IMG/VR virus record: IMGVR_UViG_3300014720_000001
Span: 140,622 to 204,621 of that record
DNA: 64,000 bases
Source of the DNA: a virus
Strand: one strand, 5' to 3'
A program made the translations under genes and the position numbers. This document shows positions 6,143 to 61,306 of this stretch, piece by piece. A model generated the notes under the pieces. The model was not told the origin of the DNA. It saw only the letters and a list, made by a program, of their open reading frames with translations, and made no database searches. Positions within the stretch are counted from its first letter, which is position 1; every line of letters starts with the position of its first letter.

Positions 6143-7066
6143 TTAAGCCTCGTCGTAATTTGCGCGAATAGCACGCTCAACGAGTAAAACACAGTACTCG
6201 CGGTTATCATAAACATACTGAAATCCCGTCGTATGAACAAGGTATAGTCGGCGGTCGTCACTGATTTGTACAGCCCACGGACGCTGATATGGATCGTTTG
6301 ACGGCGGAAACCAGCGCGCGGCATTTTGTTCAAAACGCAGGTCGTAAATTAACACGATGAAACCGGCCTCCTCGATACTGTCCGGGGAGACCTGCGCAAC
6401 TGACACAATTACGTCGTGAAAAAACGCCGGAACTGTGCCAATTCCCTCTTTTTCAAAGTACAGCAGTTTTTGCGGCGGCCCGGCTTTGTGTGCGGTCGCT
6501 GCGGCTGTCGGTACCGGATTGTTGGACTGCTTTTTTAACCCAAACGCGGCCATCGGACTGTAATTGCGGTCGATCTTTTCAATGGGCGGCATGGCCGGCG
6601 GCGGATCTAACTCAGCCATCATGTCAGCCACCATTTGCTCCTCGTCGTCCTGCGTTTCAAGCGGCAGTGGCGTTGTTGCAGGCACGGGCTTTTTCGCACG
6701 CACAACAGGTACACGCTGCACGCCAGCTTTTTCCATTTTCGACAGCTCTTCAAAAACCATCGCTGCTCTCTCCCTGATGGAATTAATATCATTACCGACT
6801 ATAGCCGCTTGCGCTGTTGCAATGGCCTGTTCGACGGCTGGGCCGGTCATCTGATCCAAGGTAAGCCCGCCGACGTTTGCGCCGTTCGGATCTACAACAT
6901 TGATTTTGATCTTTGTGCGGTCGTGCGGGTTGAAATTAATCGGAATACCGCCGGGCGTCGCGGGGGCTACAATCACGCCCTTAAGCCCCTTGCTGCCGCG
7001 CATGACGTCAAGCATCGTGCGCCCGTTTTCCATGCGCTCACTCGCCGGATCGCGATAGTCAGCCAT
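6143..7066 (-). CDS. Hypothetical protein, possible head-region gene
   Basis: A 307-residue product of unknown family. The first half is helical and alanine-rich (QAIATAQAAIVGNDINSI), the middle is low-complexity with prolines and acids, and the last third looks like a compact beta domain. Start at 7066 is supported by GGAG 5 bases upstream. It is the first gene after the terminator at 7083-7126, with only 17 bases between U-tract and ATG, so it must be read by read-through or by a promoter inside the upstream gene. Confidence 0.8.
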   Translation of the reverse strand: MADYRDPASERMENGRTMLDVMRGSKGLKGVIVAPATPGGIPINFNPHDRTKIKINVVDPNGANVGGLTLDQMTGPAVEQAIATAQAAIVGNDINSIRERAAMVFEELSKMEKAGVQRVPVVRAKKPVPATTPLPLETQDDEEQMVADMMAELDPPPAMPPIEKIDRNYSPMAAFGLKKQSNNPVPTAAATAHKAGPPQKLLYFEKEGIGTVPAFFHDVIVSVAQVSPDSIEEAGFIVLIYDLRFEQNAARWFPPSNDPYQRPWAVQISDDRRLYLVHTTGFQYVYDNREYCVLLVERAIRANYDEA

Positions 7067-7415: not shown

Positions 7416-8651
7416 TCAATGCGCAATGCGCATACGAACACTTTCCGAGCACTCAACTGCTACCGCCGAATCATCGTGCTCCGCCGGCCGGTAATTCGAC
7501 CGCTTCGGAACAAAGTCGACTGGCGCCAACAGTTCGCCGCGGTAAGGGAACGGCGTGTTTTGCCACTCCTCTACCCAGTTAACCTGAATCGCGCTGAGGC
7601 GACTCAGCACTAAAGGTTTACCCGGGTTTACCGCCGCTGTAAATAGCTCCTCATCGGTCGCTTCGCGCTGCGCCCGCTTTGGAGCCTGCATCCGCAAATA
7701 CGTCGCGGCTGCTGACGGCATCTGATCAATCGCCGTCTTGACATCAATTTTCACTTCCAGCGGCTGCTCCGGTGACAACAGCGCGTCACACATCTCGCTT
7801 TCGGTCGGCTTGATATCGCCAACCTCGGCGTACATTCCGCTGAGAATGTCATCCAGAATCCACTGCGGCATCCCTTCAGCCGTCTCCAGCCCGTGCCGGG
7901 CCAGAATCTTGCCGGCCGGATTGGGTAGCGACACGGTCATATCGCTAACCGAACCAAAGGGATTCCTATCTATCGCGCCCAACACAGGCGAAAAGTCTTC
8001 AATCGCAGCGTCGTGCCTGATTGCCTTGGTTACGTCCTTTGCCGATTCTTTGGCAAGCGCAGCAACGTTAATGTAACTTTTGTTGCCGAACTCCTTAACC
8101 ATGCTGTCGCGCAGCTTTCGGCGATACGTTTCAACCAGCTCGGCCGGGGCGTTCTGGACGGCCAGCGCAGTCAACTTATCTTCGTCGATCTGCATGTGGT
8201 TACGTACCGGAACATAAACCGTCGGCCATCGGCACGGGTCGAACGCCATCGGTTCGCCCCGTCTGTCGCTGTAACCGTAGTTGCAGATGTTGTGCAACAT
8301 GTCACAGCCACGCTTCGCATTGAGCTTGTGCTTGTAGTTACGTTTATTCAGCTGCGGCCCAAAGCCCTCGTACGAAATGGGCGCACGGAAGTCCCACTTG
8401 CCTAGGGTTTCAAGCCACACACGACCAGACCTGTCAGCCAGCGCCATCACTGCAGACAACGTAAGCCCGGCGTGCTGCGTAACTTCGAGCACTAACGCAG
8501 ACGGACGAACACTATCACCAAATCGACGAGTCGGCGAATCGAATTTCTTACCCTCACCGGCTAGCCAGCTGACCGCTACGAGTCCTTCGCAACGGCCGGC
8601 GACGCGATCGAACGCCGCGATAATGTCCATCTGTGTTTTCGCAATATTCAC
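7416..8651 (-). CDS. Hypothetical protein, 411 residues
   Basis: Unknown family. The frame is open from 8699, but a GTG at 8651 is preceded by AAGGAG at 7-8 bases and gives a start VNIAKTQMDIIAAFDRV, so I choose it. The first ~110 residues look alpha/beta, the centre holds helical charged segments, and the product ends in a VNWVEEWQNTPFPYRGELL segment. The 5' end overlaps the preceding gene by 98 bases. Nothing suggests an enzyme motif. Confidence 0.75.
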   Translation of the reverse strand: MNIAKTQMDIIAAFDRVAGRCEGLVAVSWLAGEGKKFDSPTRRFGDSVRPSALVLEVTQHAGLTLSAVMALADRSGRVWLETLGKWDFRAPISYEGFGPQLNKRNYKHKLNAKRGCDMLHNICNYGYSDRRGEPMAFDPCRWPTVYVPVRNHMQIDEDKLTALAVQNAPAELVETYRRKLRDSMVKEFGNKSYINVAALAKESAKDVTKAIRHDAAIEDFSPVLGAIDRNPFGSVSDMTVSLPNPAGKILARHGLETAEGMPQWILDDILSGMYAEVGDIKPTESEMCDALLSPEQPLEVKIDVKTAIDQMPSAAATYLRMQAPKRAQREATDEELFTAAVNPGKPLVLSRLSAIQVNWVEEWQNTPFPYRGELLAPVDFVPKRSNYRPAEHDDSAVAVECSESVRMRIAH

Positions 8652-53825: not shown

Positions 53826-54024
53826 CTTTTAACTCCAGTACTACAAAACCGACGGGGTTGTATTTGGTCAGCCGGGCCGCGTCGGTTTCGGCTTCGGTTT
53901 TATCGGTGTATACCTGCCCGGGTGTTACCCCGGCGGCGGCACACGTCGGCCCGCGGTATGCCCACGGGGCTGTGGCGCCTTCAAACGCCCGCGACGACTT
54001 CATGATGATGTACTTGGTCGGCAT
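53797..54024 (-). CDS. Small hypothetical protein
   Basis: A 75-residue product (MPTKYIIMKSSRAFEGATAP) with a central T-D-K-T-E-A-E-T-D-A-A-R-L helix and an F-V-V-L-E-L strand. It resembles the small proteins that adjust to a target by a strand-helix-strand fold, but no family is recognised. Confidence 0.72.
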   Translation of the reverse strand: MPTKYIIMKSSRAFEGATAPWAYRGPTCAAAGVTPGQVYTDKTEAETDAARLTKYNPVGFVVLELKDADLPVQSS

Positions 54025-54379
54025 CAGCCAGCTCCTTCTCTAGGTTTTTACCGCGCCCAAACATCCACGCGTCGTTGTCGTTGGGCTTGATGCAGCGGAG
54101 CCAGTCAGCGAGGGTGGGTATGCGCCCAAGATCTTCGTTGACGTGCTGTTCGCCGATGTAGCGGACTGGCACAACGCGGCCGTCGCTGTTTGTGATCGTT
54201 TTGCCAAAGATCCTTTCTGATAAGAAAATACCTTCGGAGTGGTGCCGCAGCGCGCGGTGGCGAAAGTCGGCCATGTGCGCCTTGGATTCATCAAACCAGT
54301 CATGAATCGGCTGGTAGTCTTCTACGCAGCCGCCCCACTTGCGCACTGACGATAGCGCGTGGTGATAGGGATGGGCCAT
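53981..54379 (-). CDS. DUF6915-like protein
   Basis: A 132-residue protein with a strong pattern: M-A-H-P-Y-H-H-A-L-S-S-V-R-K-W-G-G, D-Y-Q-P-I-H-D-W-F-D-E-S-K-A-H, D-x-R-H-R-A-L-R-H-H, F-G-K-T-I-T-N-S-D-G-R-V-V-P-V-R and I-G-E-Q-H-V-x-E-D-L-G. This is the DUF6915 layout, common in phages and bacteria, with many histidines that could bind metal. Function unknown. Confidence 0.78.
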   Translation of the reverse strand: MAHPYHHALSSVRKWGGCVEDYQPIHDWFDESKAHMADFRHRALRHHSEGIFLSERIFGKTITNSDGRVVPVRYIGEQHVNEDLGRIPTLADWLRCIKPNDNDAWMFGRGKNLEKELADADQVHHHEVVAGV

Positions 54380-56338: not shown

Positions 56339-56605
56339 CTATTCGCGAACTACGTGCACGTTGTACCAGCGCATTTTGTCGTTTAACCATTTCGCCTCGG
56401 CGGCGAGGGCGTCGGCTCGCGACTTAAACCCGTTGAACAGCGGACCGCCGACAGGCGCAAGATCCGCGATCCATTCGCCGGGTTTGGTCGCATCTGGTTC
56501 AACGTGGCTCGCGCGTTTGATATCCAATACGCCGAGCGCTTTCAAATCAATCTCTTCGCCGTAAAGGCACTGGGCTGCGCCGTTAGGCCGCACATAGATT
56601 TGCAT
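56339..56605 (-). CDS. Conserved hypothetical protein (RASHVEPD family)
   Basis: An 88-residue protein with a pattern found in phages and bacteria: L-Y-G-E-E-I-D-L-K-A-L-G, then R-A-S-H-V-E-P-D-A, E-W-I-A-D-L-A-P-V-G-G-P-L-F-N-G-F and R-A-D-A-L-A-A-E-A-K-W-L. No known activity. It ends the operon before the palindrome at 56290-56316. Confidence 0.8.
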   Translation of the reverse strand: MQIYVRPNGAAQCLYGEEIDLKALGVLDIKRASHVEPDATKPGEWIADLAPVGGPLFNGFKSRADALAAEAKWLNDKMRWYNVHVVRE

Positions 56606-56612
56606 GGGCGCC

Positions 56613-57611
56613 TCACATCGATATTAGACGGCGGGTCGGGACCAGTTCATTCATGTTTACAGGCGGCCGGGCGTTTGCGGCGGCTGGGGGTCGGTACAGG
56701 TTCTGCTGCCGCTGGTCTGCGCGCGACACATTAAACGCGTTGAACTGGTCGATCCGGTCGATAAACGTGTTGGCAAACAACGCCTGCTCATGTGTGTCAA
56801 GGCGCACGTATCGCCCGAGCGAGGAGTCGTGCTGCGGACGGAAAATGATATGACCACCAGCAACAACGCTGTGCCCGCAGAACGCGATGAGTGCGTTGAT
56901 CTGGTCTGAGTTTGCGATGATCGCGTAGTCAACGACTTTGAGTCGCGACAACTCAACAGTTGGGTCATCGTCATGACGCGAGTAGATTGACACTTGCATT
57001 AGCTTGCTGCCAATCACCTGTGCTTTTCCGGCTACTGTTATGAAACCGCGCAACGACGAACTACTTACCTGCGCCTCGCCGCCAATGTAGGACATGCCCT
57101 CTATCGCCACTTGAATCGCGATTGCTCGACCCGCAATTCCGCTCTGTCCGCGAACGGTGCAACTGACAACGCGCGCCGAGTCACGAACAAACGTTTCGTC
57201 GTAAAGATTGGTAGATCCTGACACCGAGCCGCCGTACACGCGCGCGTTGCTCCACAGCTGGGAATCTTCGCTGACGAGGCCGCGGCCGCTAACGATAGCG
57301 TTATTTCGCACCCGCACGTTGTCGCGCACGACAGCGTTTCCGCATACATGCGAGCGGTCCATGACGCTGACTCGGCCCTCTACGGTGGCGTTGTGGTACA
57401 CCTGCGCCCACTTAGTAACTAATACAGAATCAGCCACTTTTGCTGTGTCGGCTACCCAGCCGTTACCGTTTACATGTCGGTGCGCAAACACGCGACCGCG
57501 CCCGTCTTTGAAATCATGTTTGGACGCCCGCTTCTTTCTTGGTTTGACAGCGGGCGCCACGGCCGCCGGCGCGTCTAATACGCCGACGGCTTCGTCTTTC
57601 TGTTCCTCCAT
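56613..57611 (-). CDS. Left-handed beta-helix protein
   Basis: A 332-residue protein. ATG at 57611 lies 5 bases after GGAG and overlaps the previous stop. Residues ~60-220 are hexapeptide-like repeats (A-x-V-x-D-S-V-L-V, A-x-V-Y-H-N-A-T-V, S-x-V-C-G-N-A-V-V, V-R-N-N-A-I-V, L-W-S-N-A-R-V) that build a left-handed beta-helix as in YdcK-type phage and bacterial proteins. The N-terminus is basic with a KPRKKRASKHD stretch; the C-terminus is proline/arginine-rich. Acyltransferase catalysis is not indicated; a structural or binding role is more likely. Confidence 0.75.
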   Translation of the reverse strand: MEEQKDEAVGVLDAPAAVAPAVKPRKKRASKHDFKDGRGRVFAHRHVNGNGWVADTAKVADSVLVTKWAQVYHNATVEGRVSVMDRSHVCGNAVVRDNVRVRNNAIVSGRGLVSEDSQLWSNARVYGGSVSGSTNLYDETFVRDSARVVSCTVRGQSGIAGRAIAIQVAIEGMSYIGGEAQVSSSSLRGFITVAGKAQVIGSKLMQVSIYSRHDDDPTVELSRLKVVDYAIIANSDQINALIAFCGHSVVAGGHIIFRPQHDSSLGRYVRLDTHEQALFANTFIDRIDQFNAFNVSRADQRQQNLYRPPAAANARPPVNMNELVPTRRLISM

Positions 57612-58558
57612 CACGACTCCATAGGAAGGACACGACGCCGCGGGGCGTTCGTGATCAGGTTGTCCAGCGCGGTCTTGACCTCACCCATCTGGTGGGTCAG
57701 ATTCTGCCGCAAGTTGGTGTTTTTGCGCAGATCTTTCACGTCGACACCCGAAACAATGTCAGTCGCGCGCTGGATTAAGTTATCAAGCTGCGCATTGGAT
57801 CGAACGTTCATGCTGCGGAAGTTATCGTAGAACTCTTTGAAGTTCTCGATAGCCGACGCCTTGAACGTCTTCTTGGTACCATCCGGCTCATCTGTCAGTC
57901 GCTCGATCAGGTGCGAGATCATGTCTTGCAGCTGCTCGGCAAACGCGTTCTCGGCCATGACCACAGCGGTCTCGAACCGGTGCTGTACGCGCTGCTGCTC
58001 CTGCTGGTACAGCTCGGGATTGAACGTCATGAGATAGTTTGGCGGGTCAACCGGCGGGTACTCCCACCGCAGGTCAAACACGCCCTCCAGCGACGCCGGG
58101 TAGTCGCTCGGGTTGTATAAATCGCCCAGCTTTTCGCGGGCGGCGACCTTGATTGCTTCGTACTCCAGCTGCAGGTTTGCAGCAGCAGCCACTAGCTGTT
58201 CTTTGTATTCGCGCATCCGTTCCTCAAACGCGCCGATGTCGGACTGTTTGATGAGGCGAACGCCTTCCTGCGGATACGGCAGCGTCATGGAACGCCAGTA
58301 CGCCGAAGCCTGACTCTTGAGCGTGGTCAGTACGCGATAGGTCGTATTTTTTGTATCAATCAGGCGCTTAGACGCGGTGACCAGATCGGTAGCGGCGTGA
58401 AACGTGTCAGCTGCCTGCTTGGTCTGCGCGTCCGAAAGCTTGCGCTGCGTCCCTAGCCACGAGAACGACAGCTTGACCGCGCCCATCGTCTGGCGCAGCT
58501 CGCTAGCTGTCTGTTCAACTGTCGTGTTTTCTTCGGGCGTTGTGTCGGCTGTAGACAT
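57611..58558 (-). CDS. DUF3150-like protein
   Basis: A 315-residue mainly helical protein. A DUF3150-like core is visible: S-M-T-L-P-Y-P-Q-E-G-V-R-L-I near residue 90, a coiled helix of E-R-M-R-E-Y-K-E-Q-L, L-G-D-L-Y-N-P-S-D-Y-P near 145 and F-D-L-R-W-E-Y-P-P-V near 160. The family occurs in phages and in bacterial genomes near MoxR-type ATPases. Here the nearest AAA+ gene is the Ycf46-like one at 59223. Function unknown. Confidence 0.55.
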   Translation of the reverse strand: MSTADTTPEENTTVEQTASELRQTMGAVKLSFSWLGTQRKLSDAQTKQAADTFHAATDLVTASKRLIDTKNTTYRVLTTLKSQASAYWRSMTLPYPQEGVRLIKQSDIGAFEERMREYKEQLVAAAANLQLEYEAIKVAAREKLGDLYNPSDYPASLEGVFDLRWEYPPVDPPNYLMTFNPELYQQEQQRVQHRFETAVVMAENAFAEQLQDMISHLIERLTDEPDGTKKTFKASAIENFKEFYDNFRSMNVRSNAQLDNLIQRATDIVSGVDVKDLRKNTNLRQNLTHQMGEVKTALDNLITNAPRRRVLPMES

Positions 58559-59158
58559 TCAGTCTCCTTCTTCGTCTGTGTCGAGTTCGTCTTCAATTGT
58601 TTGTTCCACCCACTCGTTAATTGCAAACGCTTTAATGAGATCTGGCGGTAATTTTGCCAGCTCATCAAAATTGCTTGGCACGCTAAACTCTGTAACTTTT
58701 CCGTTTTGGTAAATACCACAAAACCCTACGCCCGGCTCAAAGCAGTAGGCTGTGATATCAAAACCTTCAACGGTCCGCAGGTGGTTATAGAACTCAATTG
58801 GGGGCGACCACGCAGAATCAAATACCAGCGTGAGTCTTTTGGCTTGTGCCGGGAGCCGCCGCAACGGATGATCCTTCTCGCGCCCGACGTCCCACTTTGT
58901 TCCCCAATTACCGATCTGCCATTCGTACCAGTTTCTAGCTCCGTACAACTCAACGTTTTGTCGCTCTTGCGTTTCTAGTGCAAGCTGCGCCGCTGAGCCA
59001 TCAGCTCCTGCGCGGCCGGCGACCGTTGCTTTTAACTCTTCTGGGCACGGCAGAAACGTGCCCATTAGACAACCACTGTTCCATGCACGCACTAACTTGT
59101 GCAATTGCTGCGGGTCGGTGTGTTTAAACGTAACTTTGTTGGCGCACCAGTTAGGCAT
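58559..59158 (-). CDS. DUF1281-like (YubB ferredoxin-like) protein
   Basis: A 199-residue protein with the DUF1281 pattern: M-P-N-W-C-A-N-K-V-T-F at the start, F-L-P-C-P-E-E-L in the middle and N-W-Y-E-W-Q-I-G-N-W-G-T-K-W-D-V near residue 80. The family is common in phages and plasmids and its role is not known. The ATG at 59158 is used; the upstream TTG at 59173 is less likely. The C-terminus is acidic. Confidence 0.78.
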   Translation of the reverse strand: MPNWCANKVTFKHTDPQQLHKLVRAWNSGCLMGTFLPCPEELKATVAGRAGADGSAAQLALETQERQNVELYGARNWYEWQIGNWGTKWDVGREKDHPLRRLPAQAKRLTLVFDSAWSPPIEFYNHLRTVEGFDITAYCFEPGVGFCGIYQNGKVTEFSVPSNFDELAKLPPDLIKAFAINEWVEQTIEDELDTDEEGD

Positions 59159-59179
59159 TGTGTTGGCCCGCAATCCGCA

Positions 59180-59222: not shown

Positions 59223-60707
59223 TTAGCCCTTTGCCGGCGCGGCGACGCGACGGGGACGCTGACCGACGACGGCCGGCTTGCCAACACGCGTATAAATACC
59301 GCGGTTGTCAGCCGACAGGCAACGACCTTCGGCCCAGCCACGCAGACGCTCGATCTGCTCGGCAGACGTCACCGAAATCGGCACGACATTCTGCGCAGCT
59401 TCTACCAGCGGGATATCAAGCAGCGCAGCGAGCCTGCAGCACGACTTGATCTCGGCGCCGGTCCAGTTGGCGTCATCCGGCTTTTCCTGCGACTCATCCA
59501 CGCCGAAGTGCTTCAGGTAAATATCCCAGATCGCGGCGCGCTGTTCAGCGCCGGGCAGATCCACGAAGAAGATACCGTCGAAGCGCTCGGCACGGGCGAA
59601 CGGCGCCGGCAGTTGGCTGGCGTCGTTGCAGGTGCCGATGAAGAACACGTCGGACGTGTGGTCGTTGAGCCACGTCAGCAGCGTACCGAACAGGCGCGCC
59701 GAGACACCAGAGTCCGTCTGGCCAGAGCTTCCGACGCCGGCAAGACCCTTCTCGATCTCGTCGACGAACAGCACGCACGGGGCCATGGCGTCGACCTGCT
59801 TGAGCGCGCGCCGCATGTTACCCTCGGACTCGCCCACGAACTTGCCCATGAGCGAACCGAAATCCAGCATTACGGTCGGACGGCCGACCTCGTTGCCAAG
59901 TGCTTTGGCAAACTGCGACTTGCCGCAACCCGGAGGCGACAGCAGTAGCACGCCCTTGGGGCGCTTTTCTACGTTGGTCTCACCCTGACGCCGCATGGCG
60001 CGCAGGCAGAAACTCTTTAAGTTTTCGAGACCACCAAGGTTCTCGAAGTTAGCGTCGCCGCGGTACAGCGTCATAGTACCGCTCTTTTCGAGCGTCTGGG
60101 CCTTGATACCCCAGATCGTGTCCGGCGACAGTTTGTTATTGCGTACCAGCGACAGCGCAAAGGCGTTCTCCGCCTCCTGCCGCGTCAAGCCGCGCGAGGC
60201 GTCTACAACGGCGGCAACGTCCTGCTCCGTCGGTTTGGCGAACGGCGAGCCGTCCGGGAACAGCTCGTTGCAGACCGTGGTCAGCTGCGGGAGATCCGGC
60301 AGCTCGTGATGCACTACCGTGAACAGCTTCTCAACCTCGGGCTGCAGCTGCAGCACCGGCGCCACGATAATGATATGTTTGCCCTCGCCCTTGCCCTGCA
60401 CCACGCGGTTGGCCAGAGCCTGCAGCACCTCGGGGTTGCCAAGGAAGCGGTGGAAGTTCTTCAGGACGAGCAGCATCGGCTGCTTGGGCTGCGGCTGGTC
60501 AAGAAACCGCAGCGCCTGAAGCGGGCCGGGAGCCGGAGCGGCACCCGAATACAGCTGGCGGTCGATGTCCCACACATCGAAACCCCATTCCTTCTCTTCA
60601 GTTACGCGGCGAATCGACGCAATCGCGTCATCGCACTCCTGTGATTCAACCCAGATGCCGGAGAAGCCGGCGCAAACCAGCTCCTTGATTTCTTTTTCGA
60701 GCGACAC
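59223..60707 (-). CDS. Ycf46-like AAA+ ATPase
   Basis: A 494-residue AAA+ protein. The start is GTG with AAGGG upstream. The N-terminal ~200 residues have the Ycf46 outline (I-W-V-E-S-Q-E, L-V-L-K-N-F-H-R-F-L, an R-G-L-T-R-Q-E-A-E-N segment). The ATPase has L-G-G-L-E-N-L-K (224-231), Walker A S-P-P-G-C-G-K-S-Q (257-265), V-G-E-S-E-G-N-M (291-298), Walker B C-V-L-F-V-D-E-I-E-K (311-320), a G-T-C-N-D sensor near 358 and R-A-E-R-F-D-G (372-378). Ycf46 proteins occur in cyanobacteria, plastids and other bacteria and are thought to remodel protein partners. Two small genes immediately upstream encode DUF2997 and DUF1257 proteins. Confidence 0.85.
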   Translation of the reverse strand: MSLEKEIKELVCAGFSGIWVESQECDDAIASIRRVTEEKEWGFDVWDIDRQLYSGAAPAPGPLQALRFLDQPQPKQPMLLVLKNFHRFLGNPEVLQALANRVVQGKGEGKHIIIVAPVLQLQPEVEKLFTVVHHELPDLPQLTTVCNELFPDGSPFAKPTEQDVAAVVDASRGLTRQEAENAFALSLVRNNKLSPDTIWGIKAQTLEKSGTMTLYRGDANFENLGGLENLKSFCLRAMRRQGETNVEKRPKGVLLLSPPGCGKSQFAKALGNEVGRPTVMLDFGSLMGKFVGESEGNMRRALKQVDAMAPCVLFVDEIEKGLAGVGSSGQTDSGVSARLFGTLLTWLNDHTSDVFFIGTCNDASQLPAPFARAERFDGIFFVDLPGAEQRAAIWDIYLKHFGVDESQEKPDDANWTGAEIKSCCRLAALLDIPLVEAAQNVVPISVTSAEQIERLRGWAEGRCLSADNRGIYTRVGKPAVVGQRPRRVAAPAKG

Positions 60708-60746
60708 GTGTGACCCTTGGTTTTGTTTGGAAAAGACCCGCTATTG

Positions 60747-60938
60747 TCAGTTGCTTTCAGCGATCTGCTCATCATTTCTGGCGGCGTAAAACTCGCCTGT
60801 CAGCTGCTCATCAACCTTCGCGCCCAGCGCCTGCTCCAGCGCGCGGGTCGCATCCTGACAAGAGCTGCCCGTAAAGCCGCTCGTTTCGATCTTGGTGCCG
60901 CCCTTGGGGTCAACGATAATTTCGATGGTCTTCGACAT
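60747..60938 (-). CDS. DUF2997-like protein
   Basis: A 63-residue protein with the DUF2997 pattern: I-E-I-I-V-D-P-K-G-G-T-K-I-E-T-S-G-F-T-G, then S-S-C-Q-D-A-T-R-A-L-E-Q-A-L-G-A. DUF2997 proteins are short and tend to be encoded next to DUF1257 and Ycf46-like genes. Here the gene lies 2 bases after the DUF1257-like stop and 39 bases before the ATPase. GGAGG precedes its ATG. Role unknown; it may be a substrate or adaptor of the ATPase. Confidence 0.8.
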   Translation of the reverse strand: MSKTIEIIVDPKGGTKIETSGFTGSSCQDATRALEQALGAKVDEQLTGEFYAARNDEQIAESN

Positions 60939-60940
60939 GT

Positions 60941-61306
60941 TTAGAAACCTCCCGTCAGGCTGAGTTTGACCGAACCGTCCGGCAGCATCTCCTCGAACAC
61001 CGAGTAGCCGCCCTTCTGCGCCTCATAGATCGCCTTCTCGACCGCGTACGCCTGCAGGAAATGATCCAGCTCTTCCTGCTTGCCCCACGCACCGTTGTAG
61101 TTGTCGTACGCCGCGGCGCCCGTCTCCGTGTTGAACACGGCCGGGAACTGCCACCCGGGAAGCTTTACGGCGAGACCGTCAGCCGACTGACCGGCAAACA
61201 GCACGTGATGCCCGGCCTTCGGGGCCTCAAGCCCGAGACGCTTGCAGGCCGCTTCAATCGCGGCGGCGTCTTTTACTTCCGTCTTGATCTGAACAATGTG
61301 AGACAT
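60941..61306 (-). CDS. DUF1257 (Ycf35-like) protein
   Basis: A 121-residue protein with the DUF1257 layout: M-S-H-I-V-Q-I-K-T-E-V-K-D, A-A-C-K-R-L-G-L-E-A-P, a central strand region ending V-K-L-P-G-W-Q-F-P, then L-D-H-F-L-Q-A-Y-A-V-E-K-A and S-L-T-G-G-F. Ycf35 is the plastid and cyanobacterial relative. No activity is known. It is the first gene of the trio with DUF2997 and the Ycf46-like ATPase. Confidence 0.8.
   Translation of the reverse strand: MSHIVQIKTEVKDAAAIEAACKRLGLEAPKAGHHVLFAGQSADGLAVKLPGWQFPAVFNTETGAAAYDNYNGAWGKQEELDHFLQAYAVEKAIYEAQKGGYSVFEEMLPDGSVKLSLTGGF

Follow-up and report, generated by a model that had tools for sequence, protein, structure and literature searches.

A phage gene module built around a Ycf46-type tandem AAA ATPase with DUF1257 and DUF2997 proteins and shared with Planctomycetes

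Introduction

Why should a phage carry three genes whose families are chiefly familiar from plastids and cyanobacteria? The genes in question encode a Ycf46-type AAA+ ATPase, a DUF2997 protein and a DUF1257 (Ycf35-type) protein, and they reside in the 64,000-nucleotide stretch of DNA analysed here (the window), which is the final 64 kb of a 204,621-base IMG/VR virus contig. A role in CO2/photosynthesis regulation has been suggested for Ycf46 in cyanobacteria. The initial annotation, made from the sequence alone, knew of no function described for such a trio in phages, and the literature searched likewise yielded no established role. Here, we determined computationally the families, fold and gene order of this set, a fusion of two of its genes, an exchange of histidine and cysteine between their products and an exchange of the genes with Planctomycetes.

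Results

The three open reading frames were confirmed as adjacent genes on the minus strand with compact intergenic gaps of 39 and 2 bases, and each of them has a PHROG family (8638 for the ATPase, together with 23133 and 20456):

59223..60707, minus strand: Ycf46-type tandem AAA+ ATPase, 494 residues, GTG start (PF00004, 1.7e-27; phrog_8638, 6e-82; modelled with two AAA modules)
60747..60938, minus strand: DUF2997 protein, 63 residues, invariant Cys27 (PF11211, 2.4e-16, above cut-off; G13 and C27 are the sole invariant columns in 23 homologues)
60941..61306, minus strand: DUF1257 (Ycf35-type) protein, 121 residues, N-terminus MSH (PF06868 below threshold on its own, matched by relatives; model pLDDT 82.8)

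When the products were compared with family profiles, as the initial annotation had proposed, the ATPase found its match and the DUF2997 protein, which contains the core GxxC, clearly exceeded the PF11211 cut-off (59.7 versus 24.1 bits), whereas the DUF1257 member taken alone stayed below that of PF06868 (0.0042, 17.7 bits; gathering cut-off 22.2). Searching the whole contig with PF06868 at 1e-3 gave no match. Homology of the DUF1257 gene is established via intermediates and a common MSH..IKT N-terminus: 19 of its 23 phage relatives match PF06868 (best 4.4e-15), a profile derived from the phage DUF1257 proteins recovers cyanobacterial Ycf35-type MSHFSQIKTQIR proteins, and phage-derived profiles retrieve Ycf35-type proteins (MSHFSQIKTQIRN...) of cyanobacteria plus the adjoining DUF2997 gene. 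The cyanobacterial pairs have the MSH..QIKT N-terminus and the GxxC cysteine in common with the phage proteins. Given the PF06868 matches of the relatives and the recovery of the cyanobacterial proteins, the three family names originally assigned are correct.

The ATPase comprises the following elements, all on the minus strand:

60081..60707: degenerate first AAA module (D1), residues ~1-209, without Walker A or catalytic Walker B (model secondary structure, alignment, match to p97 D1-D2)
59367..60074: second AAA module (D2), residues ~212-447, predicted active (Pfam, alignment, model)
59916..59939: Walker A, SPPGCGKS (G260, G262 and K263 invariant in 27 homologues)
59757..59774: Walker B, VLFVDE in VLFVDEIE (alignment of 27 homologues)
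59583..59594: putative arginine-finger region, RAER in RAERFD (R375 invariant and R372 present in at least 90% of alignment A1)

Both Walker motifs are intact, as had been noticed at the outset, and, like the putative arginine fingers, conserved across the 27 phage homologues. An AlphaFold2 model of the monomer (pLDDT 85.9) consists of two tandem AAA modules, the first of which keeps its fold without a Walker A motif. In Foldseek searches the whole chain aligns over ~550 columns with D1-D2 of p97, Cdc48 and Rix7 (E down to 3.5e-21), TM scores reaching 0.60 (Rix7/Cdc48) and the global TM score to p97 being moderate (0.4-0.6). The tandem architecture, the arginine fingers and the whole-length fold match are thus common to the phage protein and p97/Cdc48 or Rix7, while the former is devoid of an N-domain and of Walker A in D1 and has other partners. 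Judged by the model, the ATPase is a Cdc48/p97-like tandem AAA protein with a dead first and a predicted active second domain. By analogy, the RAER arginines would act as fingers, and the protein may assemble into a hexamer that threads its substrate. The pore-loop aromatic residue (KFVG in the window ATPase) is Leu in many relatives.

Two peculiarities of related ATPase genes were recorded along the way. In six relatives (L037, L038, L040, L041, L042 and L051) the gene is split at Walker B by an insert of ~0.8 kb, which was a group I intron in all four relatives tested (RF00028, 69-73 bits); in L037 the intron (L037:5949-6757) has the canonical T|...G| ends and separates the Walker B codons for Asp and Glu exactly; once joined, the exons form an uninterrupted frame of 494 residues. 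In other relatives (L057, L059 with L060, L063 and L152-L154, and L070) the AAA+ domain appears to be segment-permuted such that the Walker B strand and the next helix precede Walker A; at least three distinct sequences seem to have this arrangement, among them that of the isolated phage Tunturi_3 (L070).

The distribution of the ATPase was followed in viruses and cells. IMG/VR yielded 64 loci with the window protein as query and 80 with a broader alignment, three viral scans with single proteins recovered mostly self-copies, and the cellular genomes were scanned with an alignment (A4) narrower than A1. Of 82 non-redundant phage loci whose flanks were available, 60 have the two small genes next to the ATPase, as do 21 of 32 such cellular loci; these fractions describe ATPase-bearing loci only, the loci having been found through the ATPase. 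Clustering of DUF1257, DUF2997 and ATPase genes is far beyond chance, which bears out the earlier remark that the three are often neighbours. The trio is therefore widely present in phages, and the survey of other phage genomes that had been suggested revealed neither a fixed gene order nor an established function: the order differs between lineages and the set stays together. In the remaining 22 phage loci (Corndog-type phages and kin) DUF1257 or DUF2997 is not recognisable. All three genes are present in L338C, Pseudomonas phage SM1 and Acidobacterial phage Tunturi_3, and in Rhizobium phage RHph_I4 DUF1257 and DUF2997 are already annotated next to the ATPase. On contig IMGVR_UViG_3300035034_002798 (170,948 bases) an ATPase locus lies in opposite orientation near both ends (L192 and L193), pointing to either a long terminal duplication in inverted orientation or a palindrome created by assembly.

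The trio had been regarded as known mainly from cyanobacteria and plastids, a view that proved too narrow, since in addition to many phages the cellular carriers of the ATPase include Planctomycetes, Clostridia, Spirochaetes, Omnitrophota, Elusimicrobia, Micromonospora, Archaeoglobi and an Asgard archaeon. Of 59 genomes sampled from the cyanobacterial phylum, 39 contain full-length ATPase matches, mostly at 360-440 bits, with the next AAA class at ~150 bits. The match to these Ycf46-type proteins (SpoVK/Ycf46 class) includes the dead D1 along with the active D2, and the two score classes separate them from other AAA proteins. DUF1257 adjoins the ATPase in most cyanobacterial loci fetched and occurs in 16 of 16 ATPase-bearing genomes of the phylum, mostly in two copies. 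In cells, an HHH protein is a neighbour of the ATPase in 22 of 80 loci. Other neighbourhoods were noted in passing: five spirochaete loci (L093, L097, L107, L108 and L112) have a phage-tail hub-like (GPD) gene nearby and some of them pentapeptide-repeat proteins, and in loci of Hydrogenedens and Verrucomicrobia (L117 and L136) the module is accompanied by a second, larger AAA protein, with a kinase-like start in L136, and by proteins with a repeated IPEGEFLAGG-type motif, all named by eye.

The unit is not limited to the trio, as had been assumed initially. A tblastn comparison of the window ORFs with the cellular loci revealed two additional shared genes downstream, separated from the ATPase and from each other by one interposed gene each:

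58559..59173, minus strand: interposed gene between ATPase and DUF3150 gene, weak DUF1281_C/Api92-like similarity (0.0043, below cut-off), in the closest relatives only (11 loci and the window)
57611..58558, minus strand: DUF3150-family helical protein, 315 residues, fourth module gene (linked by profile; ~43% identical in Planctomycetes)
56613..57614, minus strand: beta-solenoid/hexapeptide-like protein between the DUF3150 and 88-residue genes (conserved in phages of the ~200 kb group, missing in the copies of Planctomycetes)
56339..56605, minus strand: small RASHVEP-motif protein, 88 residues, fifth module gene (~50% identical and directly after DUF3150 in Planctomycetes)

On its own, the 315-residue protein gave no match in Pfam and did not reach the gathering score of PF11348. 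A profile built up from it recruits members scoring above this cut-off of 24.9 bits (L055, 2e-13; L058, 4e-9; L062, 3e-17), and these profile-linked relatives establish its homology to DUF3150. Its gene adjoins the ATPase in 52 of 82 phage loci, distant phages included. For the 88-residue RASHVEP family neither a Pfam nor a PHROG family was found; its genes follow DUF2997 in Rhizobium phages and SM1. The order DUF1257-DUF2997-ATPase-315-residue protein-88-residue protein is repeated in seven Planctomycete loci (L071, L074, L075, L079, L082, L083 and L085). ATPase, DUF1257, DUF2997, DUF3150 and the 88-residue protein hence form a five-gene module. In the cyanobacterial Ycf46 loci fetched, DUF3150 and the 88-residue gene were not found, whereas the phage copies have both. 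L338C, RHph_I4, SM1 and Tunturi_3 resemble the window in holding ATPase, DUF1257, DUF2997 and a small RASHVEP-type gene together; they differ in gene order, DUF3150 was found in Tunturi_3 only, and it is the Tunturi_3 ATPase that appears permuted. SM1_028 and L338C_051, which stand beside the ATPase in these named phages, were considered as DUF3150 candidates and are not detectable as such by profile.

Several observations tie DUF1257 to DUF2997. The two are fused in a single ORF on two related viral contigs (L207:8193-8918 and L212:8196-8915). Residues 1-8 with the N-terminal MSH, the most conserved part of DUF1257, are disordered in the model of the lone protein, as expected of a strand that binds a partner. 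Where DUF1257 starts with MSH or MSC, the core cysteine of DUF2997 is retained (96/96), and where it starts with MPC that cysteine is lost (17/17; the automatic count was 15/17, the apparent exceptions L166 and L209 having a cysteine elsewhere in the sequence). The same column is occupied by histidine in 12 of these 17, and in others a His-rich tail accompanies the loss. Fisher's test is not valid for this association, as the sequences are related. On a tree, each trait, MPC start and cysteine loss, changed four times and all changes coincide; only two of these pairs are on branches with good support, a number too small for significance. The simplest reading is that DUF1257 and DUF2997 form a predicted joint His/Cys site, which probably binds metal. 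The DUF1257 model matched no fold in the PDB, so that function cannot be derived from fold, and neither DUF1257 nor DUF2997 had a significant hit in sequence searches of the PDB.

Two further arrangements of these genes deserve mention. In L062 two DUF1257 paralogues (6557-6949 and 7439-7834) flank a single DUF2997 gene. In the Corndog-type phage Firecracker, gp97 (L068:7438-7779) is encoded near the ATPase gene, starts with MPC and has a histidine-containing or His-rich tail; profiles lent no support to Corndog gp97 as a far relative of MPC-type DUF1257, and we treat it as a lead only.

In an ATPase tree of 107 rows, the window protein clusters with sequences from Planctomycetes (support 98, starred) in a mixed clade of Planctomycetes and phages. 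The window DUF1257 protein also has a middle segment, LPGWQFPAV..DNYNGAWG, in common with Planctomycetes; in phage proteins of this lineage such a segment (LPGWqyPvv..DNYNGxWG) takes the place of the yDIGF-type middle. The tree grouping and the common segment indicate that Planctomycetes and the phages of this group have exchanged the module, in either direction, and the phage host is probably a planctomycete, as judged from sequence relationships. A DUF6915 protein encoded at 53981-54379 on the minus strand of the window (PF21866, 1.3e-48) is 64-68% identical to products of genes directly after DUF2997 in the Planctomycete loci L077 and L084, and its gene appears to be another one exchanged with Planctomycetes.

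Discussion

We tentatively favour, with confidence somewhat below even, a remodelling ATPase that works with a DUF1257-DUF2997 adaptor. In this machine D1 of the ATPase would be a dead scaffold and D2 the active motor. DUF1257 and DUF2997 would form one subcomplex that serves as the adaptor, the N-terminus of the former and a loop of the latter jointly building the His/Cys site, which would most likely bind metal. The helical DUF3150 protein and the 88-residue protein may complete the machine in phages and Planctomycetes. As an ATP-driven hexamer, it could dismantle or restructure, in the course of infection, a complex of host or phage proteins. The initial annotation had already proposed a remodelling ATPase assisted by two small proteins; the Cdc48/p97/Rix7-like fold and the natural DUF1257-DUF2997 fusion fit this idea, and we infer the partner role, as we do the hexamer, the metal and the nature of the substrate.

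The likely metal site leads to a somewhat different possibility, namely a metallocofactor machine comparable to MoxR/NorQ or chelatase AAA proteins that inserts, extracts or repairs the metal or Fe-S centre of a target enzyme, with DUF1257-DUF2997 as metal carrier. The His/Cys exchange and the His-rich tails are in line with it, and two neighbours in cells fit a metal theme, here as in the favoured machine: ferredoxin fed7 occurs with DUF2997 and ycf35 in cyanobacteria (PMC4284462), and 32 of 80 cellular loci encode a radical-SAM protein (Fer4_12) close to the ATPase. Such a function nevertheless seems rather unlikely to us, since the phage copies showed neither a radical-SAM nor a ferredoxin partner, the His/Cys site could be purely structural and the closest fold is p97/Rix7 and not MoxR/NorQ. 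An origin as a host-derived auxiliary metabolic gene set linked to photosynthesis, which the prominence of Ycf46 and Ycf35 in plastids and cyanobacteria might suggest, has next to no probability and was rejected on distribution and on the ATPase tree: phages of Rhizobium, Pseudomonas and Acidobacteria harbour relatives, and so do non-photosynthetic bacteria and archaea, and the window ATPase stands with strong support among Planctomycete sequences.

The defence or counter-defence role that the initial annotation had also considered would mean either that the phage ATPase neutralises a system of its host or that the copies in Planctomycetes serve as defences borne by mobile elements. PADLOC indeed reports weak matches to IetA, and Planctomycete copies adjoin TniB/TniQ-like genes (L074 and L075) or a recombinase (L071), as read by eye. 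The IetA matches are generic and limited to the AAA core, which is the part that the phage ATPase has in common with the AAA antitoxins of IetAS and SGI1 SgiAT (PMC10954446). Those systems pair the AAA protein with a subtilisin-like protease; a neighbour scan in the window found no protease beside the ATPase, which has a degenerate D1 ahead of its AAA core and other small partners. A specific defence unit was rejected on these grounds, and with no recurring defence-linked neighbour and an ATPase so common in the cyanobacterial phylum that it looks housekeeping, we judge a defence function in the wider sense to be quite improbable. Little probability is likewise assigned to an accessory of replication or recombination acting on the phage replisome. 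The module shares its strand with genes for DNA polymerase, DnaB, UvsX-like and SbcC proteins in the window, albeit at a distance of ~30 kb, and while it adjoins the replicative helicase in Rhizobium phages, its neighbours are different in SM1 and Corndog phages and cellular copies are not located with replication genes.

The remodelling machine with its adaptor can be extended to a more speculative proposal, which we consider unlikely as it stands: a phage-wide Ycf46-type motor with a DUF1257-DUF2997 metal adaptor, in which histidine and cysteine have been swapped between the subunits in several lineages, with DUF3150 and with the fifth protein may allow unrelated phages to remodel a conserved metalloprotein complex of the host.

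The families themselves are known; a description of the five-gene phage module, the fusion or the His/Cys exchange was not found. Ycf46, Ycf35 and DUF2997 have long remained orphans in the genomes of plastids and bacteria. That they recur in unrelated phages as a compact module, together with two partners, the fusion and the His/Cys exchange, makes them the subject of testable claims on which proteins touch each other and where. Cultivable carriers such as Rhizobium phages RHph_I4 or L338C, Pseudomonas phage SM1 and Tunturi_3 would permit knock-outs and pull-downs that are hard to perform in plastids.
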